64,000 nt of DNA, taken from the NCBI GenBank assembly GCA_902362805.1, contig CABIXY010000002.1:186001-250000 (forward strand). Direction: 5' to 3'. The position numbers were made by a program, and so were the translations under genes. The first letter of the stretch is position 1; each line of letters starts with the position of its first letter. Under the pieces are notes generated by a model. It worked only from the letters and a program-made list of their open reading frames with translations. It searched no databases and had not been told where the DNA came from. Below, in pieces: positions 13,411 to 42,712 of this stretch. The stretch comes from Eubacteriaceae bacterium (GTDB lineage: Bacteria; Bacillota; Clostridia; Peptostreptococcales; Anaerovoracaceae).

Positions 13411-13427
13411 TGAGATCTATGAAATCT

Positions 13428-13452: not shown

Positions 13453-13474
13453 ATTTATTCAATTTGAGGAGTAT

Positions 13475-14830: not shown

Positions 14831-14836
14831 GTGAAA

Positions 14837-15976: not shown

Positions 15977-16027
15977 TGGTGTTGAATTTATACTGCAGAT
16001 ACTTTTTTACTATATGGAGAGATTTTT

Positions 16028-16056
16028 TTAATTTGAGTATAATAATTTGGTATAAT
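16028..16056 (+). promoter_or_regulatory. Possible promoter for thiI
   Basis: A perfect TATAAT at 16051-16056 with only a weak -35 (TTAATT) 17 nt upstream. The remaining ~215 nt to thiI form a long leader with an inverted repeat GGAAATTTT (16142-16150) / AAAATTTCC (16184-16192). No recognised riboswitch motif is visible in it. Confidence 0.35.
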
Positions 16057-16274
16057 ATGAAAAGAAATATCGATTTTGGGCGACTTGATACTGGCATTTG
16101 ACCAGCAATACCCCTTTATATAAAAAATATGGAGTTTTACTGGAAATTTTTATACTCATTTTTATAAAAAAGCCCTAGATAGTAAAATTTCCGTTACGAC
16201 AGGACCAAATTTGTCTATTATCGGCCGAACATCGACAGTTTGTGAAGAAAGTCAAAGTTTAAGGAGATTGTACA

Positions 16275-17459: not shown

Positions 17460-17463
17460 TACA

Positions 17464-17529
17464 AAACCCCCATTTTCTCTTAAAGACAAGGCTTCTGGCC
17501 GGGATTATAATAGAGAAAAGGGGGTTTTT
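17464..17529 (+). promoter_or_regulatory. Long inverted repeat with TATAAT in its loop, before spoIIAA
   Basis: Arms 17464-17481 (AAAACCCCC-A-TTTTCTCT) and 17513-17529 (AGAGAAAA-GGGG-TTTT) pair with one bulge. The right arm contains the GGGG that serves as the spoIIAA ribosome-binding site, and a TATAAT (17507-17512) lies between the arms. It could be the thiI terminator, an operator or a translation-blocking hairpin for read-through transcripts. No clear -35 or SigH box is visible. Confidence 0.45.
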
Positions 17530-17531
17530 CT

Positions 17532-17864
17532 ATGGAAACAATATTTTATATAAAAGGTGACACGCTGGTGGTTGATTTATCAGGAGAGATTGATCATCAT
17601 GTGGCGGAAAAAATTAGAAATGACATCGATGATGAGATCAAGCTTTATGAAACGAAAAATCTCATCATGGATTTTTCAAAAGTAACTTTTATGGACAGTT
17701 CCGGTGTTGGCGTTGTCCTGGGAAGATATAAAAAAGTAGGTGAACTGGGAGGGACTGTGACGATTCGTAACGCGGACAGGTTGGTCAAGCAGATTTTAGA
17801 TATGTCGGGTATTTTCTCCCTGATGAAATACGAAGAGACAAGTGATTTTACGACAAAACGTTAG
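17532..17864 (+). CDS. spoIIAA: Anti-sigma-F factor antagonist SpoIIAA
   Basis: A 110-residue STAS-domain protein. In its dephosphorylated form it displaces SigF from SpoIIAB in the forespore. The phosphorylation site motif MDSSGVGVVLGRYK is present; the phosphoserine is the second serine (Ser57), equivalent to Ser58 in Bacillus subtilis. First gene of the spoIIA operon, 9 nt before spoIIAB. Confidence 0.95.
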   Translation: METIFYIKGDTLVVDLSGEIDHHVAEKIRNDIDDEIKLYETKNLIMDFSKVTFMDSSGVGVVLGRYKKVGELGGTVTIRNADRLVKQILDMSGIFSLMKYEETSDFTTKR

Positions 17865-17873
17865 GAGGAAGAG

Positions 17874-18314
17874 ATGGAAGGAAATATAGTAAAACTGGAA
17901 TTTGAAGCGCTGCCAGAAAACCAAGGTTTTGCCAGATCAGTCGTCAGCGCTTATTGTGTCAGTCTCGATCCTACCCTGGAGGAGCTGACGGAGATCAAAA
18001 CGGCTGTGTCCGAGGCGGTCAGCAATGCGATTATACATGGGTATGAGAGAAAAGGAACTGGAAAAATCGAAATGGAATTGAAAACCATAGATAAGGATAA
18101 GGTCTACATCAAAATTACGGACTACGGCAAGGGCATCTGCGATATCAAAAAAGCCATGGAACCGATGTTCTCGACGGAAGAGAGTCGAGAGATGTCCGGC
18201 ATGGGATTCACTGTCATGGAGAGTTTTGTTGACAAAGTGTTTGTGGAGTCGGAGCCGGATAAGGGGACAGCGGTGACTTTGATCAAATATCTGGATACTT
18301 ATTATGGCGTATAA
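17874..18314 (+). CDS. spoIIAB: Anti-sigma-F factor / serine kinase SpoIIAB
   Basis: A 146-residue GHKL kinase that binds SigF and phosphorylates SpoIIAA. The ATP-binding boxes are visible: N-box EAVSNAIIHGY, G1 DYGKGI and G2 GMGFTVMES. SD AGGAGG. The stop overlaps the sigF start by 11 nt, implying translational coupling and matched stoichiometry. Confidence 0.95.
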   Translation: MEGNIVKLEFEALPENQGFARSVVSAYCVSLDPTLEELTEIKTAVSEAVSNAIIHGYERKGTGKIEMELKTIDKDKVYIKITDYGKGICDIKKAMEPMFSTEESREMSGMGFTVMESFVDKVFVESEPDKGTAVTLIKYLDTYYGV

Positions 18315-25366: not shown

Positions 25367-25441
25367 AGATAGAAAGGCAGAACGGAAAGCACATAGTGTG
25401 CCTCAAGTGTCATAAAGGCGATAGTGAAAGGGTTTGGATTA

Positions 25442-27471: not shown

Positions 27472-28089
27472 ATGCTCAGAAACAGAATACGTTCGAATTC
27501 GGGTGCGACGATACTGCTGGCATTGCTGTTTTTCTTGCTCTGCGCCATGGCAGGCTCCATTATACTGTCTGCCGGAAGCGCTGCTGCAGGCAGAATCAGC
27601 GGATTGAAAGAGACGGAACAGTCCTTTTATTCCGTCACTTCTGCTGCCCAGGTGATAAGAGACGAAATAGAAGGTCAGGAATTTCAGGCATATACAGAGA
27701 CGATTGATGGAGTACCAACTAATGAGTATACATTTGAAAAGCAGCCACCAGAAAATGCTGGTATGGGAAAGATTCTTAACGATGCATTTGATGCAATTTA
27801 CAAAAATGGCGGCAAAGAGGCAAAGGACGCCCTTCAGATCAAACCTCCTAGCGCTTACGACTCTGTAATGGGTACAGTTACAGCGAATTTCGTCATGACG
27901 GACGATTACAAGATAGAGATAACGTTCAGCGTGAGTGATTCAGAAAAGTACATTTGCAAGCTTACTGCAAAGGCTATCGTAAATAGAACGACAACTAGAT
28001 ATGAAGAGGAAAAAGAGGGGAAGCTTGTAGAGATTGAGCGACAAGACTTGCAGGTCTACTGGAATGAGTGCACTATTGATAAGGGCTGA
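27472..28089 (+). CDS. Type IV pilus-associated membrane protein (PilX-like position)
   Basis: 205 residues. A short basic N-terminus (MLRNRIRSNSGATI) runs into a single hydrophobic helix (about 12-38), then a soluble domain. There is G-A-T in place of the G-F-T-x-x-E prepilin site and no glutamate at +5, so it is probably not cleaved as a classic pilin. It resembles PilX/GspK-like minor components in organisation and position, heading the operon before two minor prepilins. Family assignment uncertain. Confidence 0.7.
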   Translation: MLRNRIRSNSGATILLALLFFLLCAMAGSIILSAGSAAAGRISGLKETEQSFYSVTSAAQVIRDEIEGQEFQAYTETIDGVPTNEYTFEKQPPENAGMGKILNDAFDAIYKNGGKEAKDALQIKPPSAYDSVMGTVTANFVMTDDYKIEITFSVSDSEKYICKLTAKAIVNRTTTRYEEEKEGKLVEIERQDLQVYWNECTIDKG

Positions 28090-28104: not shown

Positions 28105-28431
28105 ATGCAGTGCGTGTATAAGAAGTTAAAAGAAAACAACGGAGAATCCCTGGCGGAAGTTTTGGTAGCAATTTTGATTTCGGCTGTAGGGATGCTGATG
28201 TTGTCTTCTTTGATTTATGCAGCAACCCACATGATAGAAAAAGGCGACGCAAAGATTGCAACGATTTACAACGGTGTTAACGTTATGGAGGAGAAGAAAG
28301 ATGGTGGGACGACTGGCCAGTTAGGCATCACTAGCCAGAAAACAAGGCAGACGCAAACAGTTAACATCGACATTTATGTGGACGAAAAATCCGGTTTGAT
28401 GTCATATGAGAAACACGAGGGCGGCAAGTGA
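28105..28431 (+). CDS. PilV-like minor prepilin
   Basis: 108 residues. Its N-terminus, NNGESLAEVLVAILIS, is a prepilin cleavage site (G|ESLAE) with a glutamate five residues after the scissile glycine, followed by the hydrophobic assembly helix. The short soluble part has no recognised fold. Its stop overlaps the start of the next prepilin by 4 nt. Probably a minor pilin priming pilus assembly. Confidence 0.8.
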   Translation: MQCVYKKLKENNGESLAEVLVAILISAVGMLMLSSLIYAATHMIEKGDAKIATIYNGVNVMEEKKDGGTTGQLGITSQKTRQTQTVNIDIYVDEKSGLMSYEKHEGGK

Positions 28432-28949
28432 TGAGGTCGCGGATAAAGAATAAAAAAGGCTTTTCTATTTCTGAGATGCTCATGGTCGTGATGATTCTCA
28501 GCCTGATTATTGTCATGCTGGGCAGCGGCGTCATGGTAGTAAAGAATTCATATGAAAAGATTACACTCAAAGCGGAGGCGCAGACGCTGCTTTCGACTAC
28601 CATTACCAAAGTGAGCGACGAATTCCGTTTTGCAAAGTACGTCAACGCAGACGATAATCCTAAAGCAGCAAAGTTCGTCAGCGGTAATCTGGGGTACGAG
28701 ATTTGGTTCAAAAATGACGATGGAAGCAGCGGAATGAAGGGCATATTGATTTGCAACAACGCAGGTGTGTCTGCTCAGCTTTTAACCGATAAGACCATGA
28801 CTAGCAGGCTGACTCCATCCATAGAATATCAGTATGATAAAGACAATCGTCTGTTTACGGCGACGATTACCATCGCCACCAGAGACAACGATAAATTTTT
28901 GGAACAGGAAATCAAAGTAAAACCAATCAACAACAGGAAGGAATCATAG
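28428..28949 (+). CDS. Minor prepilin with N-terminal methylation motif
   Basis: 173 residues. NKKGFSISEMLMVVMILSL is a class III signal peptide: G|F cleavage, glutamate at +5, hydrophobic helix. The globular domain (about 40-173) is unassigned; it resembles the PilW/PulJ size class. It ends on the base before pilB begins, so translation is coupled. Confidence 0.85.
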   Translation: MMRSRIKNKKGFSISEMLMVVMILSLIIVMLGSGVMVVKNSYEKITLKAEAQTLLSTTITKVSDEFRFAKYVNADDNPKAAKFVSGNLGYEIWFKNDDGSSGMKGILICNNAGVSAQLLTDKTMTSRLTPSIEYQYDKDNRLFTATITIATRDNDKFLEQEIKVKPINNRKES

Positions 28950-30632
28950 ATGAAACATAAACGACTTGGAGACGTATTGACATCAGTGGGACTGATTTCG
29001 GACGAACAGCTGGGCGAAGCCCTGACACTCCAAAAGCAGTCCAAAGACCGTTTGGGAAAAGTTTTGATAGATAACGGATTTATCACAGAGGCACAGCTGA
29101 TAGAAGCGCTGAGAATGCAGCTGGGTATCGACTTTATCGACTTGACCAAAGTGACCATTTCCCCGGAAATGGTCGACCAGATTCCGAAGAGCATCGCTAA
29201 GAAACACGGCGTCGTACCTGTAAAGGTTGTAAAAGATACCCTTTATCTTGCCATGAAGGATCCTTTGAATTTTATGGCAGTAGAAGAAGTCCGCTCGACT
29301 TCAAAGAAGAAAATTATTCCGATGATCGCCTCTGAGAATGCGGTGGAACACGCCATCAGTGCACTCTACGGCAACGAGGGGGCAGCAAAGGCTATGGCGC
29401 AGATGCGGGCAGAATCTGGATTTCGTCCTGATGAAGCTACCATGGATTTTGCCGATGCGGAAGAGAACAGCGCGCCTACTATTAGGCTGGTCAATTCCAT
29501 CATCGAGAGGGCTGTAACGGAAGACGCCAGTGACATCCACTTTGAGCCGGGCAACGGCAACATGAACGTGCGTATGCGTATTGACGGAAGTCTGCATAAT
29601 ATACTGCAGATTCCGAGAGATTTACAGGATTCTGTCATTTCCCGTCTGAAGGTCATGGGCAGAATGGATATTTCTGAACGCCGCATTCCGCAGGACGGCC
29701 GCAGTGAACTGAGGCTGAAGAGCAAAAACATCGACCTCCGTATGTCTACGCTGCCGACAATCTTTGGCGAAAAAATCGTCATTAGGCTTCTGGCACGAGA
29801 TGAGCAGATGCTGGATCGAGAAGGTATCGGCCTCATGGATGACGATTCCAAGAAACTGGATCGTCTCATGAAACACAGCAGCGGTGTGATTTTGATCGTA
29901 GGCCCTACGGGGAGCGGAAAATCATCTACTATGTATACTATTATCAAAGAGCTGATCAGCGAATCGACCAATTTGATTACTTTGGAAGATCCGGTGGAAT
30001 ATAATATCGATGGTGCGACACAGGTACAGATAAATGAAAAGACCGGACTGACCTTCGCAGGAGGACTGCGAGCCATTTTGCGACAGGACCCGGATATCAT
30101 CGCTGTTGGGGAAATCCGTGATGGTGAAACGGCGGAAATTGCTATGAGAGCAGCCATGACGGGACATCTGGTCATTTCTACGATACATACAGAAGACGCC
30201 GTATCTGCCATTGACAGACTGAAGGATATGGGGGTAGAACCTTACCTCATTGCCGGCGGAATTCGAGGCATCATCTCACAGCGGCTCGTTAAGCGGGTCT
30301 GCAATAACTGCAGAGAAGCCTATACGCCTGACCCAGAATTGTGCGACATGGCGGGAATAGACGTGAGCAACGAAGACAGACAGTTTTATCACGGAAAAGG
30401 CTGTCCGATGTGTTTCCACAGTGGCTACAGAGGAAGAATCGGCGTATTTGAAATCCTCACTTTTAACGATGAGTTGAGATCAGGTATCACCAGGGACTGT
30501 GACAAACAGGAACTGCGTCAAATTGTGGCAAAAACGGACTTTGTATCCATGGTGCACAATGCGGACCGGTTGGTAGAAAAAGGCGTTACCACTGTAGAAG
30601 AAGTTTGCAGAACTGTAAGCCTGACAGATTAA
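28950..30632 (+). CDS. pilB: Type IV pilus assembly ATPase PilB
   Basis: 560 residues. An N-terminal MshEN/GspE-N domain (about 1-140) is followed by the secretion ATPase core: Walker A GPTGSGKSS (about 318-326), an Asp box, Walker B and His boxes, and a zinc-binding tetracysteine loop (CNNC near 451, CPMC near 485) that distinguishes extension ATPases. It powers pilin polymerisation from the inner face of the membrane. Start immediately after the preceding stop. Confidence 0.96.
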   Translation: MKHKRLGDVLTSVGLISDEQLGEALTLQKQSKDRLGKVLIDNGFITEAQLIEALRMQLGIDFIDLTKVTISPEMVDQIPKSIAKKHGVVPVKVVKDTLYLAMKDPLNFMAVEEVRSTSKKKIIPMIASENAVEHAISALYGNEGAAKAMAQMRAESGFRPDEATMDFADAEENSAPTIRLVNSIIERAVTEDASDIHFEPGNGNMNVRMRIDGSLHNILQIPRDLQDSVISRLKVMGRMDISERRIPQDGRSELRLKSKNIDLRMSTLPTIFGEKIVIRLLARDEQMLDREGIGLMDDDSKKLDRLMKHSSGVILIVGPTGSGKSSTMYTIIKELISESTNLITLEDPVEYNIDGATQVQINEKTGLTFAGGLRAILRQDPDIIAVGEIRDGETAEIAMRAAMTGHLVISTIHTEDAVSAIDRLKDMGVEPYLIAGGIRGIISQRLVKRVCNNCREAYTPDPELCDMAGIDVSNEDRQFYHGKGCPMCFHSGYRGRIGVFEILTFNDELRSGITRDCDKQELRQIVAKTDFVSMVHNADRLVEKGVTTVEEVCRTVSLTD

Positions 30633-30647: not shown

Positions 30648-31700
30648 ATGATAGTTGAAGAATATATCAAACACGCTAGTGAATTAGGTGCTTCTGATGT
30701 ACATGTAGTGGCAGGTCTGCCGCCAAAATGCAGGAAAGACGGGCAGCTGATAGACCTCTTTCCAGAAATCCTAACTCACGATACATGTGAAAAAATCGCC
30801 AGTGAGTTGGCGGGTAAGTTATACAGCAGAATCGAAGAAATCGGCGAGTTGGACTTGGCAAAGACCATCGCGGGAGAGCGTATCAGAATTAATCTCTTCC
30901 GGCAGCAGGGCAGCATCTCTGCCGCCTTGCGTATACTGAGCAATCAGATACCAAAGCTGGATCAGCTGGGTCTTCCCCCGGTAGTCAGTGACTTTCCATC
31001 TTACCAGAAAGGTATCGTCCTGGTAACTGGTGAGACGGGAAGTGGTAAGTCCACCACATTGGCGGCGATTTTGAATCAGATCAATCACACGAGATGTGAT
31101 CACATTATCACGTTGGAGGATCCGATCGAGTACCTTTATGAGCCTGATAAGGCGATTATCAATCAGAGAGAAATAGGCAAAGACACAGAGAGTTACGACA
31201 ATGGACTGCGGGCGATTCTCAGAGAAGACCCAGACGTCATTTTGATCGGCGAAATGCGAGACCTCAATACCATCGAAACAGCTTTAACAGCGGCAGAGAC
31301 TGGCCACCTGGTCTTTGCAACTTTGCATACCAATTCGGCGCCGGATTCTATCGATCGTATGGTAGGTGTCTTCCCGGCAGAACGCCAGCAGCAGATTAGG
31401 CTGCAGTTATCAACCACGCTGAAGGCGGTGCTCTCTCAGCAGCTTTTGGTCCGTAAAGGCGGCCAGGGCAGAGTTGCAGCGTGCGAAGTCATGGTGGTGA
31501 CACCGGCGATCAGAAACCTGATCAGAGAAGGTAAGACACCGCAGATGATGTCGTCGATGCTGTCAGGGGCTTCGGAAGGAAGTCTGACCATGGATAACTG
31601 CCTGATCAAAATGGTCAAAGAGGGGACGATTTCCTCAAAGACGGCTTATGAAGCTTGTAATGACAAGGATTATTTGAAAAAATACGTGAGTATCAGATAG
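30648..31700 (+). CDS. pilT: Type IV pilus retraction ATPase PilT
   Basis: 350 residues. Walker A GETGSGKST (about 128-136), ILIGEMRD Walker B, and the PilT hallmark AIRNLIREGK near the C-terminus. No tetracysteine loop. It depolymerises pili and drives twitching. Its presence argues that these pili retract. SD TTGGAGG, 15 nt after pilB. Confidence 0.96.
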   Translation: MIVEEYIKHASELGASDVHVVAGLPPKCRKDGQLIDLFPEILTHDTCEKIASELAGKLYSRIEEIGELDLAKTIAGERIRINLFRQQGSISAALRILSNQIPKLDQLGLPPVVSDFPSYQKGIVLVTGETGSGKSTTLAAILNQINHTRCDHIITLEDPIEYLYEPDKAIINQREIGKDTESYDNGLRAILREDPDVILIGEMRDLNTIETALTAAETGHLVFATLHTNSAPDSIDRMVGVFPAERQQQIRLQLSTTLKAVLSQQLLVRKGGQGRVAACEVMVVTPAIRNLIREGKTPQMMSSMLSGASEGSLTMDNCLIKMVKEGTISSKTAYEACNDKDYLKKYVSIR

Positions 31701-31732: not shown

Positions 31733-32947
31733 TTGGTAACTTATCAGTACAGGGCCATTACGGAAGACGGCGTCAAAACCAGAGGTGTCGTCCAGGCTGT
31801 GGACGAATACGCCGCAGTGGAAAAAATTAAAGCGACCTGCCCCATTGTGACGAAGATTACACCCGTAAAAGAAGGCGGGATTAACAATATATTGCAGATG
31901 GAGGTAGGAAACACCAAGATCAATACCAAAGCCCTTTCGGTCATGTGTTCTCAGTTCGCTATCATTCTCAAATCGGGAGTACCGATTTCCAGATGCATGG
32001 AGATGATTGCCGAACAGACCACAGACAAGAGGCTGAGGAAGATGCTCTTCAGTGCGGCTGACGATGTGGCGGAAGGTAACGGTATCGCCAACAGTTTTGA
32101 AAAGAACTGCAAAGAACTGCCGATTACCTTTATCGAAACGGTCAGAGCGGGAGAGCATTCGGGAACTTTGGAGCATTCCTTTGATACCTTGGAGAAGTAT
32201 TATGAGAAGTCATACAAGACCAGTCAGAAGGTAAAGCGGGCGATGAGTTATCCGATCTTCGTTATCTGTGTCGCTATTGTGGTTTTGATCATCGTCATGG
32301 CAAAGGTGGTGCCTTCCCTGGCGGAAACCTTCCTGGACTTGGATGGAGAAATGCCTGCCATTACCAAAGCGATGATCGCCATGTCAAATTTTTTCAGTAA
32401 ATACTGGCTGATCATCATCGGGGTGCTGATTGCACTGGCGGTGGTCTTAAAGCTTGTCTTCAATACGGAGAAGGGCAGGGTCTTCTGGCATAAGATGAAG
32501 CTGAAAATTCCCGTGATCGGAAAGATCGCCTTGCTCAACGGAGCCAGTCAATATGCCAACACCATGGCAGCTTTGATGAGCGCCGGCTTATCTGTTCATC
32601 AATCGCTGGATATCACTGCAAAGGTCATGGACAATTATGTTTTGAGCCTGGAGACTTCTATGATGAGCGGCAGGATTGAGGAAGGAAAGCAGCTGGGAGA
32701 GTGTATGCGCCAGAGCAAATATTTTCCGAAAACGCTGATTGAGATGTGTGCCATCGGTGAAAGCACCGGTGAACTGGATGAGACACTTGTGACGGTCGGT
32801 TCGTATTTTGATAATGAAGCCGAACACGCTACGGAAAAAGCGATTTCCAAGCTGGAGCCGGGCATTTTAATCGTCATGGCCATCTTCGCAGGATTTATCG
32901 TCATTTCGATTTACCTGCCGATGTTCACCATGTACGAATTGATTTAG
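31733..32947 (+). CDS. pilC: Type IV pilus inner-membrane platform protein PilC
   Basis: 404 residues with two GspF/T2SSF domains (about 70-190 and 270-395) and three main transmembrane helices (about 170-195, 218-240 and 370-395). It anchors PilB and PilT. TTG start at 31733 with GAGGCGGGA just upstream. No ATG or GTG gives the conserved N-terminus (VTYQYRAIT). Confidence 0.94.
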   Translation: MVTYQYRAITEDGVKTRGVVQAVDEYAAVEKIKATCPIVTKITPVKEGGINNILQMEVGNTKINTKALSVMCSQFAIILKSGVPISRCMEMIAEQTTDKRLRKMLFSAADDVAEGNGIANSFEKNCKELPITFIETVRAGEHSGTLEHSFDTLEKYYEKSYKTSQKVKRAMSYPIFVICVAIVVLIIVMAKVVPSLAETFLDLDGEMPAITKAMIAMSNFFSKYWLIIIGVLIALAVVLKLVFNTEKGRVFWHKMKLKIPVIGKIALLNGASQYANTMAALMSAGLSVHQSLDITAKVMDNYVLSLETSMMSGRIEEGKQLGECMRQSKYFPKTLIEMCAIGESTGELDETLVTVGSYFDNEAEHATEKAISKLEPGILIVMAIFAGFIVISIYLPMFTMYELI

Positions 32948-33523: not shown

Positions 33524-33652
33524 TATATGGAATTCAGCTGATTGTTTCATACTGAAGTTTCTTAAGTAAGCCATATCATCTTTCTGATTTGATATCATAA
33601 ATGCATGCTAAATCCCCATTTAAATATGCATATATCAAGGAGGAAAGATGAT

Positions 33653-34108
33653 ATGTTAGAAATGAGAAATGTATTAAACACGAAGTTGAACAAGAAGGGG
33701 TTTACCCTTGCGGAATTGTTGGTAGTTGTTGCTATTATTGCTGTTCTAGTGGCGGTGTCCATACCTATCTTTACAGGTAAACTAGAAAAGACGAGAGAAG
33801 AAACTGATATCGCCAATATGAGAGCAGCTAAAGCTGTGGCAGTAGCTGCAGCTTTAGATGACAAACTCGATACAGATGTTTGGTTGAACGGTGTTGCATA
33901 CTATAATGCTGAAGATGGAGTATTACAACAAGCAAAGCCGACAAAAGTGTACGGCAAAGGAACTAGTAAAAAAGCAGGGCAGACATATACGAATTATGAT
34001 GATGCTAAAGATTACACTGAAGCTGTTATCAAAGTAACAATTACAAATTCACCATCTGATAAAGCAAATAATGTAAAGATTGAATGGGAAGGTGTAAAAA
34101 CAAAATAA
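33653..34108 (+). CDS. Major type IV prepilin (second paralogue)
   Basis: 152 residues starting MLEMRNVLNTKLNKKG|FTLAELLVV. Classic G|F cleavage, glutamate at +5 and a hydrophobic alpha-1 helix, then an alpha-helical stretch (TDIANMRAAKA) and a small lysine-rich globular domain. Start at 33653 set by AAGGAGG; a longer ORF start at 33605 is rejected. It shares its first ~50 residues with the flanking paralogues and diverges after that, as expected for surface-exposed pilin. Intact here, so it may be the pilin made in this strain. Confidence 0.92.
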   Translation: MLEMRNVLNTKLNKKGFTLAELLVVVAIIAVLVAVSIPIFTGKLEKTREETDIANMRAAKAVAVAAALDDKLDTDVWLNGVAYYNAEDGVLQQAKPTKVYGKGTSKKAGQTYTNYDDAKDYTEAVIKVTITNSPSDKANNVKIEWEGVKTK

Positions 34109-34156: not shown

Positions 34157-34230
34157 CTATTCATTGATTTTTTCCCAAAAGCCAATATGACTGTTTTTTG
34201 GGAAAGCATCAAGAAGAGAGGAAAAGTGAT

Positions 34231-34659
34231 ATGCTATTAAGAAGAATAAATCAGGGGAATAAGAGTAAAAGAGGGTTTACCTTAGCAGAACTCTTAGTGG
34301 TGGTAGCTATTATTGCTATATTAGTTGCAGTATCCATCCCCATTTTCACAGGAAAATTAGAAGAGGCAAGGAAAAACACTGACCTTGCCAACGAAAGAGC
34401 GGCGAAGGCGGCGGCCGTAGCTGACTATATGTTAGAAGGGGAACCGGATTCATATGAAAAGTTTTATGATGCAGAAAACGGGACGATGGTTGAACTTACA
34501 GATGCGGATAAACTGGAAGGATATAACCAAGTGAAGAGGTCTGAAAGTAAGGATAGAAATACAAGCGTTATTATTGTATTAATTTCATCTTCAACCGATA
34601 GTGATGACAACCTCAGAGTTACAGTACAGTGGCATGATTTAAAAAGAGAATTGGGATAA
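34231..34659 (+). CDS. Major type IV prepilin (third paralogue)
   Basis: 142 residues, MLLRRINQGNKSKRG|FTLAELLVV. Same N-terminal helix and IPIFTGKLEEARKNTD continuation as its neighbours, different globular part (YDAENGTMVELTDADKLEGYNQ is shared in pattern with paralogue 1). Start at 34231 preceded by GAGAGG. Intact. Confidence 0.92.
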   Translation: MLLRRINQGNKSKRGFTLAELLVVVAIIAILVAVSIPIFTGKLEEARKNTDLANERAAKAAAVADYMLEGEPDSYEKFYDAENGTMVELTDADKLEGYNQVKRSESKDRNTSVIIVLISSSTDSDDNLRVTVQWHDLKRELG

Positions 34660-34671: not shown

Positions 34672-35133
34672 ATGAATTTACTGAACGACAAGCGTGGCCT
34701 TTCGCGTCTGGAACTTTTCTGTATCGTGGGGATCACCCTGGCATTAGTGTTCCTCGCCTACAAAGGCATCCTCTATTATCACAACAGCATGGCGAAGGGC
34801 AATGACAGTCTCAAGGTCAATTCGGCGGAGTCTGTTGCAGCCATGAATCTGACTACCGCGGGTTGTGTCATCAACGGTTGTGAGGGCAGTTTTGATGAGC
34901 CTTGCGAGCACATGGACAAAGACGGTTATACCACAGGCTATTATGATGCCGTAAAGAAAAAGATCTTTGCTGACAACTCATCTGGTTACAACGAATACAC
35001 AGAGATGAAAATCGGTAGTGAAGTGTACAGAGGCGAGCGGAATACCATGGTTATCAAAGTGCGAGGGAAAGAAGACAAAATCGTTCTTAGCTGGGTGCCG
35101 TCAAAAGAACAGGAAAGATCCAAGCACAAATAA
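34672..35133 (+). CDS. Divergent pilin-like protein
   Basis: 153 residues. MNLLNDKRG|LSRLELFCIVGI keeps the glycine, a +5 glutamate and the hydrophobic helix of a prepilin, but leucine replaces phenylalanine at +1. The helix is followed by a soluble domain with four cysteines (TAGCVINGCEGSF, EPCEH and others absent from the major pilins). Twelve nt after pilin 3, with an SD GAGGAG, so in the same transcript. Probably a minor pilin; PilD should still accept G|L poorly or fully, untested. Confidence 0.75.
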   Translation: MNLLNDKRGLSRLELFCIVGITLALVFLAYKGILYYHNSMAKGNDSLKVNSAESVAAMNLTTAGCVINGCEGSFDEPCEHMDKDGYTTGYYDAVKKKIFADNSSGYNEYTEMKIGSEVYRGERNTMVIKVRGKEDKIVLSWVPSKEQERSKHK

Positions 35134-35467: not shown

Positions 35468-36247
35468 GTGAACATAGAAGAAAACACCTTTTTAACAGTT
35501 TACATATTTGTGGTAGCGGCCATCTTTGGAGCTGTCTTCGGCAGTTTTATCAACTGCATGGCGTGGAGAATCGCTCATGATGAGAGCGTTCTGAAGGGCA
35601 GAAGTCACTGTGCCCTCTGCGGCCACCCGCTGGGAGCGGCAGACTTAGTGCCGGTGTTCAGCTACCTGTTTCTCAGAGGCAGATGCAGATACTGCAAAAA
35701 AAAGATTTCACCTCGTTACGTGGCAGTGGAGCTGGTAATGGCAATTGTTTTTATTCTGACAGCGTGGAGATTCGGTTTGTCGCTGCAGACCTTGTGGATC
35801 TGCGGCTTGGCATGCATGCTGATGGCATTGTCCCTGGTGGACTTGGAGACCTATACGATTCCTGACCGCTTCATCATTGCCGGAATTCTATGGTACTTTG
35901 GCGTACTGCTCTTTACAGATGACTGGAAAGCTGAACTTCTTTCCGGCTTGGCGGGAGGTCTTTCTATCGGCGTGGGCATGCTGCTCCTGTCCATTCTATT
36001 CGACAAAGTGACAGGCAAAGAAAGCCTGGGTGGAGGCGATATTAAACTGTTCTTTATGACAGGTCTGTACTTGGGACCATGGGTGGGACTTTTTAACTTG
36101 ATTCTGTCTTGTATCATCGGAATCGGTTTTGTTCTGTGCATGGGACAAAAGCGAATTCCCTTTGGACCGGCCATTTCCCTGGCGGTTTTAATCAGCGCTT
36201 TGGTGGGAAATGATGTGGTAAATTGGTACCTGGGGCTGTTTGTTTAG
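35468..36247 (+). CDS. pilD: Prepilin peptidase / N-methyltransferase PilD
   Basis: 259-residue A24 aspartic protease, polytopic. The N-terminal DiS_P_DiS domain carries the tetracysteine zinc site (CALCGHPL and CRYCKKK). The catalytic aspartates are in LVDLETYTIPD and GGGDIKLF. It cleaves after the glycine of prepilins and methylates the new N-terminus; its substrates are the prepilin genes around it. GTG start with GGAGGAG 11-12 nt upstream. Confidence 0.94.
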   Translation: MNIEENTFLTVYIFVVAAIFGAVFGSFINCMAWRIAHDESVLKGRSHCALCGHPLGAADLVPVFSYLFLRGRCRYCKKKISPRYVAVELVMAIVFILTAWRFGLSLQTLWICGLACMLMALSLVDLETYTIPDRFIIAGILWYFGVLLFTDDWKAELLSGLAGGLSIGVGMLLLSILFDKVTGKESLGGGDIKLFFMTGLYLGPWVGLFNLILSCIIGIGFVLCMGQKRIPFGPAISLAVLISALVGNDVVNWYLGLFV

Positions 36248-36283: not shown

Positions 36284-37288
36284 ATGGCAAAGAAAAAAAT
36301 ATTGGGCATCGAGATCGGCAATTGCCGCCTGAAGATCGCAGTCTGTTCCGATTACAATCTGGAGCGGTTGATTACAGCGGACCTGCCTGACAATCTGGTA
36401 CAGGAGGATGAAATTGTATCCTGGGATGCCATGGCAGAATTCATTAAAGAAGTAATCAAAGAGAATAAAATTTCTGTGAAAAGTACAGCGGTGGTGATAC
36501 CAGAAAAGCTAGTTTACACCAAACATGTAGTCATGCCGGCTATGACTGTGGACCAGCTAAAAGTGAACCTGCCTTATGAGTTTCACGATTACATAACAGA
36601 AGAAAAGGATAAGTATTTCTATGACTATGCGGTGATGAACAAGACTTTTGATGACGATGGAAATCTCACGGAGATGGAATTAATGGCAGTAGCGATCCTC
36701 AAAGAGACGGTTAATCAATACAAGACCATGTTCCGCCGTGCTGGACTGCGTCTCAATTTAGTTGCACCGGATTATTGCGCCATCCGCAATATCATCAAAG
36801 ACTACGAAGAAGTTAACGATCTGAAGGAGCCGGGGGATTATGCCGTGTTGGATATCGGCCACAAGACCGTAAAACTCTACTTTTTCACAAAAGGAGAATA
36901 TGAGATTACCCGCGTAATGGAAGCAGGCTGTGAAGAAATCGACAGGCATATTGCCGAAAATCTCAATGTGGAGGAACACATCGCACGCATCTACAAGGAG
37001 ACAAACAAGGACGATATCCTTCATGAACCGGGCTGTGAGGAGATTTACAGCCAGATGGCCATAGAAGTCATGCGAGTTCTGAACTTCTACAACTTCAACC
37101 ATCCAGACAACGGATTAGACGCTCTTTATTACTGCGGCGGGGGTTCTCTGATCACGCCTTTGATCGATGCCATTGCAGGAGCCACGGAAGTGAAAGTAGT
37201 CAGCTTAGACAATCTGCTGACTGACAAATACGAAGATACGACAAAGATTTTGCAGGGGCCGCAGGCCTTAGGCATTACATGGGAATAG
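36284..37288 (+). CDS. pilM: Pilus assembly protein PilM
   Basis: 334 residues, FtsA/actin-like ATPase fold: phosphate-1 ILGIEIGNCRLKIAV at the N-terminus, phosphate-2 YAVLDIGHKTVKLYF (near 187-200) and an adenosine-type GGGSLI near the end. It sits at the cytoplasmic face and binds the PilN N-terminus. SD AGGAAAAA is weak. Twelve nt before the pilN start. Confidence 0.88.
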   Translation: MAKKKILGIEIGNCRLKIAVCSDYNLERLITADLPDNLVQEDEIVSWDAMAEFIKEVIKENKISVKSTAVVIPEKLVYTKHVVMPAMTVDQLKVNLPYEFHDYITEEKDKYFYDYAVMNKTFDDDGNLTEMELMAVAILKETVNQYKTMFRRAGLRLNLVAPDYCAIRNIIKDYEEVNDLKEPGDYAVLDIGHKTVKLYFFTKGEYEITRVMEAGCEEIDRHIAENLNVEEHIARIYKETNKDDILHEPGCEEIYSQMAIEVMRVLNFYNFNHPDNGLDALYYCGGGSLITPLIDAIAGATEVKVVSLDNLLTDKYEDTTKILQGPQALGITWE

Positions 37289-37300
37289 GAGGTGTTATTT

Positions 37301-37888
37301 GTGAGCAGACTGAATCAGCCCATCGGCAAAGTAAGATATCCAGATAAGACTTCCATCAACCTTTTGATGCAGGATAAAAGCGTAAGGGATCCGAAGTTCC
37401 AGATAATTCTCTTTGTGTTATTCGCATTGATTCTCGCCCTTTTTGTCAAATTCATGGTTATCGACAAACTGGCGGAAGCTTATGAAGCGGAGAAGGCTTA
37501 TACGCAGATGCAGACACAGATTGACCAGCTGAGAGCATCCAACGAAAAATATGACCAGGTCAGGGAAGAATATAGCCATTACGGCAACGGCTACCTCAAT
37601 GACGAAGAAAAAGCGGAGCAGGATCGCATGGCTATGATGAGAGTGATTAAAAGCAATGTGATAACGAAATCTGAAATCCAGTCTGTGGAGATTTCGGGTA
37701 ATGTTGCGACGTTGACCATAGATAACATCAGACTGAGGACGGTTTCAGACATTGTCGCTTCTTTGGAAAAAGATGATCGTGTATCCTTTGTAACTGTTTC
37801 TACGGCAGGAACCAACACGGATTCTAATGCGATGGTGACTGCAACCGTGATTATCAATTTTATTCCGAACGGAGGTGAGCAGCAATGA
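37301..37888 (+). CDS. pilN: Pilus assembly protein PilN
   Basis: 195 residues. A conserved-type cytoplasmic N-terminal segment with INLL (KTSINLLMQD), the PilM-binding motif, then one transmembrane helix (about 40-57), a coiled coil and a ferredoxin-like periplasmic-side domain. GTG start at 37301, because AGGAGGTG overlaps an alternative upstream GTG. Stop overlaps pilO by 4 nt. Confidence 0.85.
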   Translation: MSRLNQPIGKVRYPDKTSINLLMQDKSVRDPKFQIILFVLFALILALFVKFMVIDKLAEAYEAEKAYTQMQTQIDQLRASNEKYDQVREEYSHYGNGYLNDEEKAEQDRMAMMRVIKSNVITKSEIQSVEISGNVATLTIDNIRLRTVSDIVASLEKDDRVSFVTVSTAGTNTDSNAMVTATVIINFIPNGGEQQ

Positions 37889-38487
37889 TGAGCCGTGAGT
37901 TTACCAGCCGTGAAAAGATTCTTCTTTTGGTTCTCTGTGTGCTGCTTCTGGGCATCGCCTACTATGAATTCATTATCAAAGACGTGGACGAAACCATCAA
38001 AAAGTACGACACCGAAGATTTGGAAACGGAGCTTTTGATTGAGCAGACCAGGGCGCAGAGCATCATGGATATGGAAGCCGAGATGAAAAACGCCAAGGAC
38101 CAGACGGGCAGCGTGGTGGCTAGCTACAACAATATAAAAAATGAAATCAGCGCGCTGAACGATATTTTCAGTGCAGCTTCTACCTATAACTTTGACTTCA
38201 GCCAGGCCATCAAAGATGGGGACGCTGTGCGCAGAGACATCAGCGTCAGCTTTACAGCGGGCAGCTATAATACGACAGAGTCTATTATAGCAAAGCTGCA
38301 CGGCTGCAAATACAGATGTCTCATCAGGAACATCAGCATCAACACCAGTTCTGGTGAAGGCATCAGTTCTGGCGAAGTCAGCGTCAGCATGACTGTGACT
38401 TTCTTTGAGACCATGTATAATGCAAATACCACAGACGGATTGGAAGAGAACAAAGATGAGGGGAAGACTACAGCGAAAACTAAATAA
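37885..38487 (+). CDS. pilO: Pilus assembly protein PilO
   Basis: 200 residues. One N-terminal helix (about 11-28), a coiled coil (about 35-85) and a small alpha/beta domain, the architecture of PilO, which pairs with PilN. Poorly conserved family; position after pilN is the main support. The next gene begins inside its last codons. Confidence 0.82.
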   Translation: MMSREFTSREKILLLVLCVLLLGIAYYEFIIKDVDETIKKYDTEDLETELLIEQTRAQSIMDMEAEMKNAKDQTGSVVASYNNIKNEISALNDIFSAASTYNFDFSQAIKDGDAVRRDISVSFTAGSYNTTESIIAKLHGCKYRCLIRNISINTSSGEGISSGEVSVSMTVTFFETMYNANTTDGLEENKDEGKTTAKTK

Positions 38488-41400
38488 CAAGAGCGGATTC
38501 ACCCTTGCTGAGACCTTAGTGGCCTTGGCCATTTCAATCATTCTTCTCGCCATTACCATGGTCGGCATCCTGCACTACTACAAGAACATGAAGCTGACGG
38601 AAATGGACAATACGGCGAAGGAAATCTTTATTGCGGCTCAAAATCATCTGACCGCGGCGGACGCATCGGGGGAGCTGAAGCGGTACAGAGAGAAGGCGCT
38701 GGATGACACAGATACTTCTGTAAAAAAAGAAGCCCTGGGGACTTTGATAAAGGAGAAGCCTAAGGACGTGCCTGACGGGATCAATTGGCCGGCAGATAAT
38801 AAAGAATACTATTATATAGAATACAATATACCTAGTGGGACTACAGGGAATTTAGAAGGAAGCATATTGCAGTATATGTTTCCTTTTGGTGCCATTGACG
38901 AAACCATCAGAGCCGATGGCAGATATATCATCGAGTACAACGTGGAGACGGCCACCGTGTACGGGGTCTTTTATGCTGAGGAGGATGTGGATTTTAGCTA
39001 TTTAGATATCCTCACATTAGATAAGAACGGTGGAAGAGCGGATACTGCAGACGGCAGACATACGAGACGAGACTACGATGCAGGCATCATCGGCTATTAC
39101 GGCGGGGCGATGGCGGGGAACCTGCTATCCGGTCCGACCTCTGATTTGCAAATGGACATTGAAAATAAAGATACTCTGAAAGTCACGGTCATCGACCCTA
39201 ATTATTTCAATAAGGCGACAGATGGAACAAGCACGCTTCAGACCCATCTGACATTATATGTAAAAGGAAAAGACAGCGGCAACGAAGTGAAATTTACGCT
39301 GGACTTGGCTGACGGTGCCAATCCTGAGAAGAAAGACAAAAATAAAGATCTCTGGTGGGATGTTGAGACTGTTGAATTGAAAGAACTTATCAGCGGGAAA
39401 GAGGGTAAAGGATTAAAGTATACGATTACTTTAGACGATCTCACGCGGCCGGGCGGTCATTTTGCCGATCTTTTCCCGACTTTGATGCCGGGAGAAGACA
39501 TCATCGTAAAGGTGGTGAGCGCAAGTTCAACCGCATTGGCTACAGTGAGAGAAGCTGAAGACATGTGCAACAGCCTGTTTGCCGCACGAAAAGATGGGAC
39601 TGAGAGTGATGGCTTTAAGGTGTCTACCGCATCCATCAGTTCTATCCGTCATTTGCAGAATCTGGATCCTAAAGTTTCAGGTGTGCCTGTAGACAGGGGG
39701 ACAGTCAGAGATAAGACTGGCAAAGAATTGTATAAGATAGAATATCTGGTTACCAAAGCTTCTTTGATTTCCGATATGAATTGGGAAGAGTTCTTTGGAA
39801 AAAAAGGTGATGTAAAATCTGTATATAAGCCTGGACTGAAGGAAGATGCGCCAAAAGATACCGGATGGTTAGCAGAAGAAAGCTTTTATGGAATTTATAA
39901 TAAAAATCTGGTAGAGATCAAAGGTAATGGTAAAACGATATCCAACGTGCAGATTATAAATAAATCGGTAGATGAAGATTTAACGTTGGATAATACCACT
40001 GCTTTTAATGCTGGTCTTCTGCGATTTGTTGATTCGGATACGTTTACTGTGACAAATCTTACCTTAAAGGACTTTACTGTAAGTGCTGACAGGAATGCCA
40101 GCATGCTCATTGCAGATGTTGCAGAAGGAAAGAGTGTAACGTTGACGAATATCCTAGTTGACGGCGGCACTGTGAAATCAAATAAAGGAAGAGGAAATGC
40201 AGGCGGGCTCATCGGATATACGGGGAGCAAGGTTACCGTAACCAATAGTGCGGTCGTAATCAAATCCGTTGGATCTGGAGGCAGACTATCAAATGTGTAC
40301 GCAGGTGATGCAGGCGGACTGATTGGCGAAATTAATAAATGCAGCGATAGCGTGATTGAGAATTGTTATACAGGCGGACAGACGGTTGATGGGAAATATG
40401 AGACTGGAGATGCAGATGTATATAACGTCTATGGAAGAGACGGCGCTGGTGGTCTGGTAGGAAAGATCAAATGCAATAATATGCAAATTAAAAATTCATA
40501 CAGCACTTGTTCTGTGTATATCGGTGTTACTCCCGAAATGCCCGGTAAAGGAGCGGCCGGAGGATTGGTCGGCAAGGGTAAAACTGCGATTATGTATAGC
40601 AATTGCTATGCGACAGGTCTTATAAAGGGAGGTTCAGAACAGATTGTTGGAACCTTTGTAGGTCAAAGCAATGGTTTTGATAGTTATGTTGATGGATGCT
40701 GCTATCTTACAGGAATCAATGACGGTTCTGTAAAGGTTGTAGGAGAAGGTCAGAAAGGAAGTTCTATTCAGTCAAAGAGCTACGATGAGATGAAAAGTAT
40801 TCATACAGATATTGAGTCGTACCCAAAAGACAAGGCATTGGATAGCCAGACTTATCCGTTCCGAACTGTGAACGCAGTAGGTGCAAAGGATAAAATCAAC
40901 ACCAAGGGCGTCCATTATGGAGACTGGCCTCTGGAAGAAGAAAAAGAAGTATACGGAGGGAAATTATTCGCATATAGAGAGAAAGTAACTGTGGATAGGA
41001 AGACACAGGATTCCTGGTATCTGGTTGATGTATCAGTAGGTAAGGATGGTGTAATAACCGAAAAAAAAGATCAGTACCTGATTAAGAATAAAGAATCGTA
41101 TACAGAAAGTTATAGTTATGGATTTCTGATTGATGAAGAAAACGATGAACAATTCGAAAGTCAGTTTAAAGGAGAAATAGTTAAATTCGTTGGTGATACT
41201 AAAAATCCTGAACTTGTTACAATTGATGGTAAAAAATATAAGTATTATCAGGTAAAATCTGATGCAGAACGAGATGAGTCTGGCTTTGTAACAACACTGC
41301 AATGGAAGCTGACGAATAAAGGAGATGGAGAAACGATACAGTTCACCTTCAACCCGGATTTTGGCTGTGCAATTGAGGCAAAAGCAAATAAGAATAAACT

Positions 41401-42655
41401 GGGTACAAGTGCCCATCCGTATGAAATTCGAAGTGATAAGCAGCTGAGAAACATTGCCACAAGTAAATTCGCTGATTCTTACAACGATAAGGAATTCATT
41501 CAATCTTTAGATATTAACTTGACAAATGAAAACTTCAAACCTTTTGGCGGGGATAAGGGATTTGCTGGAAAATATAATGCATTGTATAGAGATGAGCAGG
41601 GCTACGAGATAAATAACTTTAGGCAGAATATTAGTGGCAAAAATGTAAAAGCCGGACTGATTACTGAAATCGGCAGTACCGGAAAAGTGTTTTATATCAC
41701 TTTGCATGGAAAAATTACAGCAAAAGAGTCTTACCTTGAATCTATTGGAAGTCTGACAGGCGTGTTGCGTGGCACAGCGAAAGGTTGTTATTCAGATGTA
41801 TCTTTAGAGGTCCACAATGATAACGATTACAGCGGCAATATTGGAGGTATGTTCGGTAATATATCAGGAGGAGCTAAAGCAGAGGATTGCCATTATATGA
41901 CAGTCGACACAAGTTCAATTGCCGAACCTTTCAACACCCATAACAGTGTTCCGAAAAAGATTAATATCGGTGGATTAGTCGGCTACAACTCTGGTGAGAT
42001 TGTTAATTCATCAGCAGAAGTTAAAATTACACCTGCAGAAACTAATTCAGGAAACCAGGAAATTGGCATCGGCGGATTTGTAGGCAAGAACATAAACTTG
42101 GGAAAGATTGACAATTGTTGGTCAAAAGTCTCATATTCTGTGAGCAGTGTAGTAGAAAAGGCATACTTTGGTGGCTTTGCGGGAATTATTTCTGGAGATG
42201 CAAAGATTACAGATTCATATGCCATACTCAATTGGTGGCCAACGTTGCCTTATGGTGCCTTTGTAGGAAAAAACGGGATGACCACTAACGATTCTGGTAT
42301 TGTAAAGAATTGTCATGCTGTAATAACGGATTACTATAACTCAATGAACGCAAATAATACGCTTTCCTTCATCGATGAAAATTCGTTGAAAGGAGATGCA
42401 AATTGTTACATGTACCGCAATGGAAATAGTAGCGAACGAGGCGTGACTTATATCTCTGATTCAAATAATTATAAGGTCTTGGCAACGTTTAAAAATTTTG
42501 ACGAGTCTATTTGGGAAGTGGTTAACGGTAAGTATCCGACCTTAATTGCAAACCCGGAACCTAAAGCCTCTAAAGCAAAGGCACAGTCCATATTCAAGAG
42601 GTCTTTGGAAGAGAACCTGCAGCCTAAGATTGATGCTAAATTAAACCAAGAATAA
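38456..42655 (+). CDS. Giant prepilin-headed protein with GLUG repeats (candidate pilus tip adhesin)
   Basis: 1,399 residues from the ATG at 38456; a longer ATG start at 38405 is less likely. The N-terminus NNKSG|FTLAETLVALAISI is a complete prepilin signal: cleavage after Gly14, glutamate at +5, hydrophobic helix 15-38. A long extracellular part follows, with two GLUG-repeat blocks, about residues 520-770 (GGLIG near 582 and 619, GGLVG near 665 and 702) and about 1090-1330 (GGLVG near 1172, GGFVG near 1205, GGFAG near 1239). Between them is a lysine-rich beta domain. There is no sortase motif and no second membrane anchor. It is about ten times the length of the normal pilins. It overlaps pilO by 32 nt, so it belongs to the pilus operon. 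Adhesin function is inferred. Confidence 0.88.
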   Translation: MRGRLQRKLNNKSGFTLAETLVALAISIILLAITMVGILHYYKNMKLTEMDNTAKEIFIAAQNHLTAADASGELKRYREKALDDTDTSVKKEALGTLIKEKPKDVPDGINWPADNKEYYYIEYNIPSGTTGNLEGSILQYMFPFGAIDETIRADGRYIIEYNVETATVYGVFYAEEDVDFSYLDILTLDKNGGRADTADGRHTRRDYDAGIIGYYGGAMAGNLLSGPTSDLQMDIENKDTLKVTVIDPNYFNKATDGTSTLQTHLTLYVKGKDSGNEVKFTLDLADGANPEKKDKNKDLWWDVETVELKELISGKEGKGLKYTITLDDLTRPGGHFADLFPTLMPGEDIIVKVVSASSTALATVREAEDMCNSLFAARKDGTESDGFKVSTASISSIRHLQNLDPKVSGVPVDRGTVRDKTGKELYKIEYLVTKASLISDMNWEEFFGKKGDVKSVYKPGLKEDAPKDTGWLAEESFYGIYNKNLVEIKGNGKTISNVQIINKSVDEDLTLDNTTAFNAGLLRFVDSDTFTVTNLTLKDFTVSADRNASMLIADVAEGKSVTLTNILVDGGTVKSNKGRGNAGGLIGYTGSKVTVTNSAVVIKSVGSGGRLSNVYAGDAGGLIGEINKCSDSVIENCYTGGQTVDGKYETGDADVYNVYGRDGAGGLVGKIKCNNMQIKNSYSTCSVYIGVTPEMPGKGAAGGLVGKGKTAIMYSNCYATGLIKGGSEQIVGTFVGQSNGFDSYVDGCCYLTGINDGSVKVVGEGQKGSSIQSKSYDEMKSIHTDIESYPKDKALDSQTYPFRTVNAVGAKDKINTKGVHYGDWPLEEEKEVYGGKLFAYREKVTVDRKTQDSWYLVDVSVGKDGVITEKKDQYLIKNKESYTESYSYGFLIDEENDEQFESQFKGEIVKFVGDTKNPELVTIDGKKYKYYQVKSDAERDESGFVTTLQWKLTNKGDGETIQFTFNPDFGCAIEAKANKNKLGTSAHPYEIRSDKQLRNIATSKFADSYNDKEFIQSLDINLTNENFKPFGGDKGFAGKYNALYRDEQGYEINNFRQNISGKNVKAGLITEIGSTGKVFYITLHGKITAKESYLESIGSLTGVLRGTAKGCYSDVSLEVHNDNDYSGNIGGMFGNISGGAKAEDCHYMTVDTSSIAEPFNTHNSVPKKINIGGLVGYNSGEIVNSSAEVKITPAETNSGNQEIGIGGFVGKNINLGKIDNCWSKVSYSVSSVVEKAYFGGFAGIISGDAKITDSYAILNWWPTLPYGAFVGKNGMTTNDSGIVKNCHAVITDYYNSMNANNTLSFIDENSLKGDANCYMYRNGNSSERGVTYISDSNNYKVLATFKNFDESIWEVVNGKYPTLIANPEPKASKAKAQSIFKRSLEENLQPKIDAKLNQE

Positions 42656-42658
42656 CTT

Positions 42659-42700
42659 AAAAGTACTGCTGGCCGTTAGATGGTCACGCAGTACTTTTTT
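42659..42700 (+). terminator. Terminator of the pilus operon
   Basis: An 11-bp stem AAAAGTACTGC (42659-42669) / GCAGTACTTTT (42688-42698), followed by Ts. It also serves the convergent Rpn gene, whose A/T-rich complement gives a run on the other strand. Confidence 0.92.
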
Positions 42701-42712
42701 AGCTAATCGTGT

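Follow-up and report, generated by a model that had tools for sequence, protein, structure and literature searches.

Large modular pilins are a described class of proteins (PMC8179133; papers are cited here by PMC number). In Streptococcus sanguinis, two such pilins have been shown to bind ligands: PilB, which carries a vWA domain, adheres to host proteins, and PilC, which carries a lectin domain, binds glycans (PMC8179133, PMC9934059). Filaments are started by minor pilins, which assemble into a tip complex whose cap is a subunit lacking the glutamate at +5 (Glu5) (PMC10191384). The need to start the pilus may restrain the diversification of tip subunits, and minor pilins are usually more conserved (PMC9556784). 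Here we describe a prepilin gene in a 64,000-nucleotide stretch of DNA (the window; contig CABIXY010000002.1, positions 186,001–250,000) from a Eubacteriaceae bacterium. The gene, at 38456–42655 on the forward strand, encodes 1,399 residues, exceeding the size of an ordinary pilus subunit about 7-fold, and we refer to the protein as the giant prepilin, or the giant. Judging from its sequence and gene context, we think it probable on balance that the giant is a modular minor pilin that sits near the pilus tip together with three small prepilins, K, I and J, and presents an exchangeable binding arm.

An early pilin finder for Gram-positive bacteria kept only proteins of fewer than 350 residues (PMC3244431), a filter that would have missed such giants. 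Members of the family may be among the more than 1,200 modular pilins counted in PMC8179133. Literature searches returned little on the pili of such Clostridia, and in the open literature (subscription articles and preprints excluded) we found no report of GLUG pilins or large clostridial minor-pilin extensions, and none on mosaic minor pilins among the titles listed.

The giant combines a predicted pilin module with a graft

The gene is a single unbroken frame, as read from the list of open reading frames and the translation. Its product begins with MRGRLQRKLNNKSG, a short basic leader ending in Gly, followed by FTLAE, which places Glu at +5, and a hydrophobic helix. Because of this signal, and because Pfam N_methyl scores over its cut-off (22.4 bits against 21.2), we assign the giant to the class III prepilins, as did the initial annotation, made from the letters of this DNA. 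The NCBIfam GFxxxE model, TIGR02532, remains under its cut-off (12.9 bits against 16.3). The start codon, on which that assignment had been said to depend, does not alter it: the ATG has a candidate ribosome site, GGAAGAG, seven bases 5' (by eye), and the alternative TTG start at 38405 adds 17 residues and retains the same prepilin signal.

The initial annotation described the signal and the alpha-1 helix as fused to an extracellular part. The fusion holds, but the pilin part appears to be a complete module, residues 15–220, and not alpha-1 alone; a separate grafted module follows it. We place the end of the pilin module at residue 220 because a bare homologue of 189–191 residues ends at the same GYYGG motif. 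In genomes G172 and G229, the core profile of the family, which lacks alpha-1, matches this small protein (E 2.0e-11 and 1.8e-13), the match running slightly past its stop. The protein can be aligned to the giants over the stretch between the signal and GYYGG, ends about ten residues later, and is directly followed by K and I (plus J in the longer locus). Its close relatives, P0122–P0136, have 181–215 residues. By alignment and gene order, we regard the bare pilin as the ungrafted homologue in the gene slot of the giant. The boundary obtained from it is independent of the identity change point at residue 220 described below. Searched against solved structures, the family profile with alpha-1 retrieves pilins, largely through the helix; the match to one of them, 3sok (E 3.3e-6), spans positions 10–116.

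After the pilin module, the graft comprises a second domain, a GLUG block and a distal module with more GLUG. The two GLUG blocks of the initial annotation were recovered with a repeat model built exclusively from 100 distant homologues (P0022–P0121). This independent model finds seven copies in the giant: five in residues 580–763 (580–605, 617–648, 664–688, 699–726 and the weak 734–763) and two in residues 1170–1234 (1170–1190 and 1206–1234). In shuffled controls of the giant, 67 copies were found summed over 500 shuffles, with at most 2 per shuffle. A query-seeded model, circular by design, gives 4+4 copies (580–725; 1127–1267). The Pfam search that had been proposed succeeds in part: Glug (PF07581) matches a single copy, residues 1170–1192, just over the cut-off (20.6 bits against 20.5). 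To call the approximately 1,360 extracellular residues repeat-rich was an overstatement, as the two blocks together cover about 325 residues, a minority of the sequence. Among 20 family members scanned (E ≤ 0.01), Glug matches 8 and N_methyl 19. The GLUG blocks, as the initial annotation suggested, may fold as beta-solenoids, for which the following match to a solved chain offers indirect support.

Profiles of the family hit one solved chain, 3n6z, a 'putative immunoglobulin A1 protease', in the region of roughly the first GLUG block (E 8.9e-4 and 3.8e-6). Together with the Pfam Glug match, this indicates that a graft of this kind also occurs outside pili, as is characteristic of modular pilins. 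As 3n6z is the sole solved relative found for the arm, the arm could instead be a processing or immune-evasion module resembling the immunoglobulin A1 protease, or a phage receptor or decoy whose diversity is driven by escape; the rapid exchange of ectodomains described below also fits phage or antibody escape. A zinc protease identity was rejected, since the giant has no HExxH motif. Pfam M26_N matches only 1 of the 20 members (E 0.0038), and the protein at locus L023 is under the cut-off (22.6 bits against 27.7). We consider a processing, evasion or decoy role in place of binding quite unlikely.

The giant belongs to a widespread but patchy family

The giant is not an isolated case; the initial annotation overlooked its family, the pilin boundary and the exchange of ectodomains. 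A protein search over the 7,996 candidates with the most words in common identified a family of 159 database proteins at E ≤ 1e-3. The best 120 of these 159 have 770–2,407 residues, and family frames range from about 450 to 4,600. A prepilin signal is found near the start in 117 of 121 sequences (P0001–P0121, query included). It is also in place in members of 2,555, 3,963 and 4,576 residues, with N_methyl just under the cut-off in the 2,555-residue protein. The largest prepilins seen here are frames of 3,982 and 4,602 residues with a prepilin signal (L022:9944–21889 and L023:4880–18685), from metagenome-assembled genomes named Gemmiger sp. and Oscillospiraceae. Together with the bare pilin of 189 residues, the family forms a natural series within one gene slot, with arms as long as thousands of residues, which renders the idea of a graft module on a pilin directly testable.

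Some members repeat the unit of second domain plus GLUG. In 13 of 27 frames a GDW motif lies at most 20 residues from the end, and 11 of those 13 frames have 700–850 residues. In the giant of the window the motif is at residue ~820, and the distal module beyond it (836–1399) is shared with near relatives. A search with the distal module returned six proteins, five of them close relatives, and the possibility that it is a mobile part found on other proteins was rejected.

A genome scan located at least 31 loci, of which L001–L025 match well, L026 and L027 more weakly, and L028–L031 over the helix only. Named carriers include Eubacterium pyruvativorans, Oribacterium sp. NK2B42, Clostridium vitabionis and [Clostridium] asparagiforme. 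Eight whole genomes that were checked have one family match apiece. Within the family of E. pyruvativorans, 27 of 296 genomes match, 3 of them twice (two genes in G485; twice inside one frame in G469 and G577). Among genomes of the closest genus, the gene is present in 1 of 13, the centre genome itself. The giant family is thus widespread but patchy.

Several loci show other arrangements. In L090 (G485), tandem giants of 1,418 and 1,349 residues (9800–14053 and 14062–18108) follow PilO; the second is 13% identical to that of the window in the signal-helix part and 33–40% over residues 46–560. Such a pair is a possible source for ectodomain exchange. In L089 and L092, short giants of 670–675 residues apparently end inside the GLUG part and are followed by proteins of 1,247–1,360 residues (L089:4566–8306, reverse strand; L092:10559–14638, forward strand). 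Both contain Flg_new repeats and, as judged by eye, a signal for secretion; the L092 protein additionally bears GLUG-like repeats close to its end. The arrangement is possibly a split version, a pilin with a separate secreted arm, recalling CofB/CofJ. In L082:5261–7075 (G086) and L083:5062–6915 (G062), and also in L049 and L050, proteins of 605–618 residues that look polytopic by eye and lack a prepilin signal match the soluble part of the pilin module in their C-terminal part (A5 positions 3–151 and 3–106 in G086 and G062, E 3.6e-9 and 7.7e-8). In L082 and L083 this is a pilin-like domain on an unrelated membrane protein; a Pfam scan of the 605–618-residue proteins found no family. L082:3–497 encodes the C-terminal piece of a further protein of this type. 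L032, an IMG/VR contig from a viral collection that is probably host DNA, contains a K-I-J-giant cluster with a giant of 777 residues.

The gene slot points to a probable place at or near the pilus tip

The giant lies in a complete type IV pilus operon and overlaps the PilO-like gene, as initially annotated; it is the last gene, and the overlap is 32 nt. The sister locus L091 shows the same overlap when the longest frames are used. The same operon encodes a prepilin peptidase and assembly proteins (PilD, PilB, PilC and PilM), the company expected of a type IV prepilin, and K-I-J belong to this run of genes, about 10 kb upstream of the giant.

Neighbours were counted for 59 gene instances, each with more than 700 nt upstream and the window included. 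The count left out L033–L051, L055, L056 and L077, mostly second or short records of loci counted elsewhere; L043 went uncounted (as L087, unrecognised by the model), and L049/L050 and L082/L083 were excluded as membrane-protein fusions. The nearest recognised upstream gene is J in 30 instances, PilO in 18, PilT in 2 and another giant in 1; none was recognised in 8. Three of the 30 J genes (L024, L065, L067) are weak matches of 24–26 bits and probably major pilins. K is directly downstream of the giant in L024 and in four cases without an upstream neighbour (L027, L080, L081, L085). Overall, the giant adjoins PilO or K-I-J in 50 of the 59 instances, in the orders K-I-J-giant, giant-K-I-J and PilO-giant. 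In L066, L071, L072 and L074, no pilus neighbour was found on the same strand within the DNA examined.

Glu at +5 is missing from K in 17 of 17 aligned sequences and present in I (16/16), J (15/15; 14 by script, one by eye) and the giants (25/25). This is the pattern of an HIJK-type complex. The J profile weakly matches geopilin and PilE1 among solved structures; NCBIfam ComGF and ComGE match 2 and 3 of 15 J members, and ComGF is the J-equivalent in a table of PMC10191384. Because of the adjacency to K-I-J or PilO, the distribution of Glu5 and the described rule of a cap without Glu5, the giant most likely takes the fourth, H-like place beside K-I-J, at or just below the tip.

Glu at +5 in all 25 giants would also suit an accessory pilin of the same modular build that is inserted occasionally among the major pilins, its arms decorating the shaft, and accessory minor pilins of the shaft are known (PMC10191384, PMC9556784). 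The gene position speaks for the tip instead: pilJ and pilW of Clostridioides difficile, for which a shaft place has been proposed, lie apart from the pilus cluster (PMC9556784), while the giant gene adjoins K-I-J or PilO in most instances. The S. sanguinis PilB model also counts against a shaft place, though a place in the body is allowed there too (PMC8179133). We regard the shaft position as unlikely.

The giant could also act outside any pilus, as a surface protein held in the membrane by the prepilin helix, with its arm passing through the wall. The ectodomain is large for passage with a pilus, and the helix is the only anchor seen; a search of the giant for an LPxTG-type sortase motif found none. 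An anchor of this kind does not account for the usual place of the gene in pilus operons, for the ungrafted pilin occupying the same slot, or for the conservation of the pilin module, 79–87% identical between sister loci, beyond the needs of an anchor. To us, this explanation is quite improbable, and a tip-proximal pilin is preferred.

The ectodomain appears to be exchanged on a conserved pilin module

Two database proteins, P0002 and P0008, are identical up to GYYGG and 43% identical beyond it; the best single change point is at residue 220, with a log-likelihood gain of 162. P0008 and P0011 are 88–89% identical in both the pilin part and the ectodomain. The pilin of P0008 would thus derive from one lineage and its ectodomain from another, because the former is identical to that of P0002 while P0008 resembles P0011 in both parts. 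In the ectodomain tree, a P0001+P0002+P0008 grouping is rejected (approximately unbiased test, p 2e-78), and in the pilin-part tree a P0007+P0008+P0011 grouping is rejected (p 0.005, identical rows left free); the groupings were chosen after seeing the identities, so these p values are descriptive. Between P0003 and P0007, identity is 97% as far as residue 374 and 43% beyond. Of the 88 differences between P0001 and P0002, 63 fall within residues 1100–1290 (the distal GLUG block), downstream of which the two sequences agree again. Taken together, these comparisons suggest that the graft is apparently exchanged between relatives while the pilin module is kept.

Steps in identity could also result from assembly chimeras or from uneven constraint along the protein. 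P0002, P0003, P0007 and P0008 were compared as proteins only, and pairs such as P0001/P0004 (78% then 44%) fit constraint alone. Against this, P0002/P0008 falls from 100% to 43% while P0008/P0011 stays at 88–89% in both parts, and P0001/P0002 diverge mainly in one internal block and then rejoin. The P0008 cluster consists of six sequences on three contigs, the longest 179 kb. We consider artefact or constraint a rather unlikely source of the pattern and favour exchange.

The sister locus L091 (G649, of the same family-level group as E. pyruvativorans) shows how identity changes along the operon. Compared with the window, PilM is 91% identical, PilN and PilO 88%, PilD 87% and PilC 94% (residues 138–404). 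For the giant, identity declines from 87% over the signal and helix through 79% over the remaining pilin and 67% over residues 221–430 to 36–47% beyond residue 430. This gradient fits a base bound to the machinery and a freely changing arm. The third prepilin is 79% identical. Fourfold sites are 43–57% identical even in PilD–PilO, too distant for a DNA-level test of recombination.

In a more specific form, ectodomain cassettes (the whole arm, the GLUG part or the distal block) would be swapped by homologous recombination at fixed junctions, the conserved motifs GYYGGAMA (~220) and NSLF (~375), on an unchanging pilin carrier at the tip of a clostridial type IV pilus. We give this proposal about an even chance, or slightly less. 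If it is true, binding or antigenicity would diversify through a single tip subunit, in addition to the diversification of the major pilin.

A proposed tip pilin with a changing arm

We propose the following model. Residues 1–220 would act as an ordinary prepilin, cut by PilD of the same operon, and the alpha-1 helix with its Glu at +5 would insert the giant into the pilus. The giant would join K-I-J at the H place of an HIJK-type tip complex, at or just below the tip, where its arm may bind a surface or a partner. Recombination at 220, at ~375 and inside the distal GLUG block would change the arm, so that binding or antigenicity varies while the pilus machinery stays constant. Rapid variation of an exchangeable graft is what one would expect of a binding arm. 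The exchanged ectodomains suggest strong diversifying pressure on what the pili bind or on what binds them, and a variable arm on a tip subunit bears on the point made in PMC9556784 about restraint.

Several observations weigh against this model. We named K, I and J from the order of the genes, their size and the distribution of Glu5; none of the three profiles convincingly matches solved GspK/J/I or PilX. In NCBIfam the giant itself comes closest to ComGE, an I-type protein, scoring 19.9 bits over the helix where the cut-off is 49, and its Glu at +5 also permits a shaft position. When alpha-1 is left out of the core profile, no solved chain is matched. The two bare pilins are identical at 180 of 189 residues and, as close kin, represent one lineage; G172 and G229 have no PilM match, and their PilB/PilC-type genes are on another contig than the bare pilin. 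(A prepilin peptidase was found in G172; the search of G229 found none.) The mosaics are known from the protein sequences of database clusters (P0002, P0003, P0007, P0008). Fast change is not confined to the arm, because the best matches between the major-type pilins of the window and L091 are only 54–56% identical. Finally, the distribution is patchy: within the class that includes E. pyruvativorans, a match to the giant occurs in 11 of 391 genomes and one to PilM in 183 of 391. Of these 11, 8 are also among the PilM genomes, 3 cover at least 300 of 310 profile positions and 2 are membrane-protein fusions. On these counts, the idea that every clostridial pilus needs a giant was rejected.

The operon and its surroundings

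The operon runs from 27472 in the order K, I, J, PilB, PilT, PilC, two major-type pilins, a prepilin-like protein, PilD, PilM, PilN-like, PilO-like and giant (Table 1). The prepilin-like protein at 34672–35133 (GLSRLE, Glu at +5) lies directly before PilD and has no Pfam or NCBIfam match; its relatives precede PilD in L003, L019, L086, L090 and L091. The window contains no second copy of the ectodomain, the signal helix alone matching a pilin.

Table 1. Features of the pilus operon and of the giant prepilin (positions in the window)
Feature	Position	Strand	Basis
K-like minor prepilin, without Glu +5	27472..28089	+	gene order, alignment
I-like minor prepilin (GESLAE)	28105..28431	+	gene order, homologues
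J-like minor prepilin (Glu +5)	28428..28949	+	gene order, homologues
PilB extension ATPase	28950..30632	+	PF00437 and PF05157
PilT retraction ATPase	30648..31700	+	PF00437; named by gene order, length
PilC platform protein	31733..32947	+	PF00482
Major-type pilin	33605..34108	+	N_methyl 32 bits
Major-type pilin	34198..34659	+	N_methyl 33.3 bits
Prepilin-like protein (GLSRLE)	34672..35133	+	open reading frame, homologues
PilD prepilin peptidase	35468..36247	+	PF06750 and PF01478 over cut-off
PilM	36284..37288	+	PF11104 94.1 bits
PilN-like	37292..37888	+	position, homologues in other operons; no Pfam family over cut-off
PilO-like, overlaps giant by 32 nt	37885..38487	+	position, homologues; Pfam below cut-off
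Giant modular prepilin (predicted), 1,399 residues, last gene of pilus operon	38456..42655	+	open reading frame, translation, Pfam
Class III leader, residues 1–14, Gly before FTLAE	38456..38497	+	translation; N_methyl over cut-off
Pilin module, residues 15–220, Glu +5, ends GYYGGAMA	38498..39115	+	ungrafted homologues L045/L047 end there; identity change point 220
Second domain, residues 221–375, ends at conserved NSLF motif	39116..39580	+	alignment; change points 374–375 in three pairs
GLUG block 1, residues 580–763, 4 clear copies and 1 weak	40193..40744	+	independent repeat model
HYGDW motif, residues 819–826; 13 of 27 frames end close to motif	40910..40933	+	frame comparison
Extra distal module, residues 836–1399; close matches in near relatives only	40961..42652	+	homologue search
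Segment, residues 1100–1290, with 63 of 88 differences from P0002	41753..42325	+	identity scan
GLUG block 2, residues 1127–1267	41834..42256	+	Pfam Glug at 1170–1192; repeat models
Terminator-like stem-loop with T run after operon	42659..42698	+	fold of 42651–42705: -22.9 kcal/mol

The stem-loop after the operon is absent from the list of the terminator pattern scan. That scan gave 18 terminator-like sites against 13.3 expected (sd 4.0), and the promoter scan 43 sites against 29.8 expected (sd 5.7); neither was used. Directly upstream of the operon, positions 25424–27352 encode a dCache-GGDEF protein of the diguanylate cyclase type, and control of the pili by cyclic di-GMP is plausible. Riboswitch control of the operon was rejected, as no Rfam match was found in 20000–50000. 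A PD-(D/E)XK nuclease family transposase (PF12784; 42713–43528, reverse strand) lies convergent to the giant gene, directly after it, and is possibly relevant to local rearrangement. The window also contains a SpoVAD gene, pointing to a spore former.

Comparison with known systems

Like PilB and PilC of S. sanguinis, the giant is a minor pilin of a monoderm, composed of a pilin and a C-terminal graft, with a predicted tip place beside an I-like partner (PMC8179133, PMC9934059). Unlike in those proteins, the graft has about 480 to 4,400 residues in full-size members and often bears GLUG, a second domain is common across the family, and the graft is apparently exchanged between relatives. The profile searches of the family against solved structures listed neither S. 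sanguinis protein, and no search was aimed at them.

As in the HIJK tip complexes of type IVa pili and the type II secretion system, and in ComGD/E/F/G, K, I and J are encoded together, and the K-like subunit lacks Glu5 while the others have it (PMC10191384); in the window the giant lies about 10 kb from K-I-J. The giant would fill the fourth place, and its ungrafted homologue has ordinary pilin size. It differs from HIJK in having no significant sequence match to the subunits and in carrying a giant graft on the subunit of the H place.

GLUG proteins (PF07581) and 3n6z resemble the arm through one GLUG copy over the cut-off and the family profile match; the arm differs in having no HExxH motif and in being joined to a pilin. 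CofB/TcpB and ComZ also carry extra domains on a pilin with a ligand role, in ComZ a beta-solenoid, but the ComZ solenoid sits inside the pilin sheet, whereas the graft of the giant follows the pilin, and CofB, unlike the giant, is a trimeric adapter of type IVb pili (PMC8179133). The PilC/PilY1 proteins of diderm type IVa pili are likewise large, domain-shuffled tip adhesins on a constant carrier (PMC8179133, PMC10191384). PilY1, however, is not a pilin, while in the giant the carrier and the arm are one chain.

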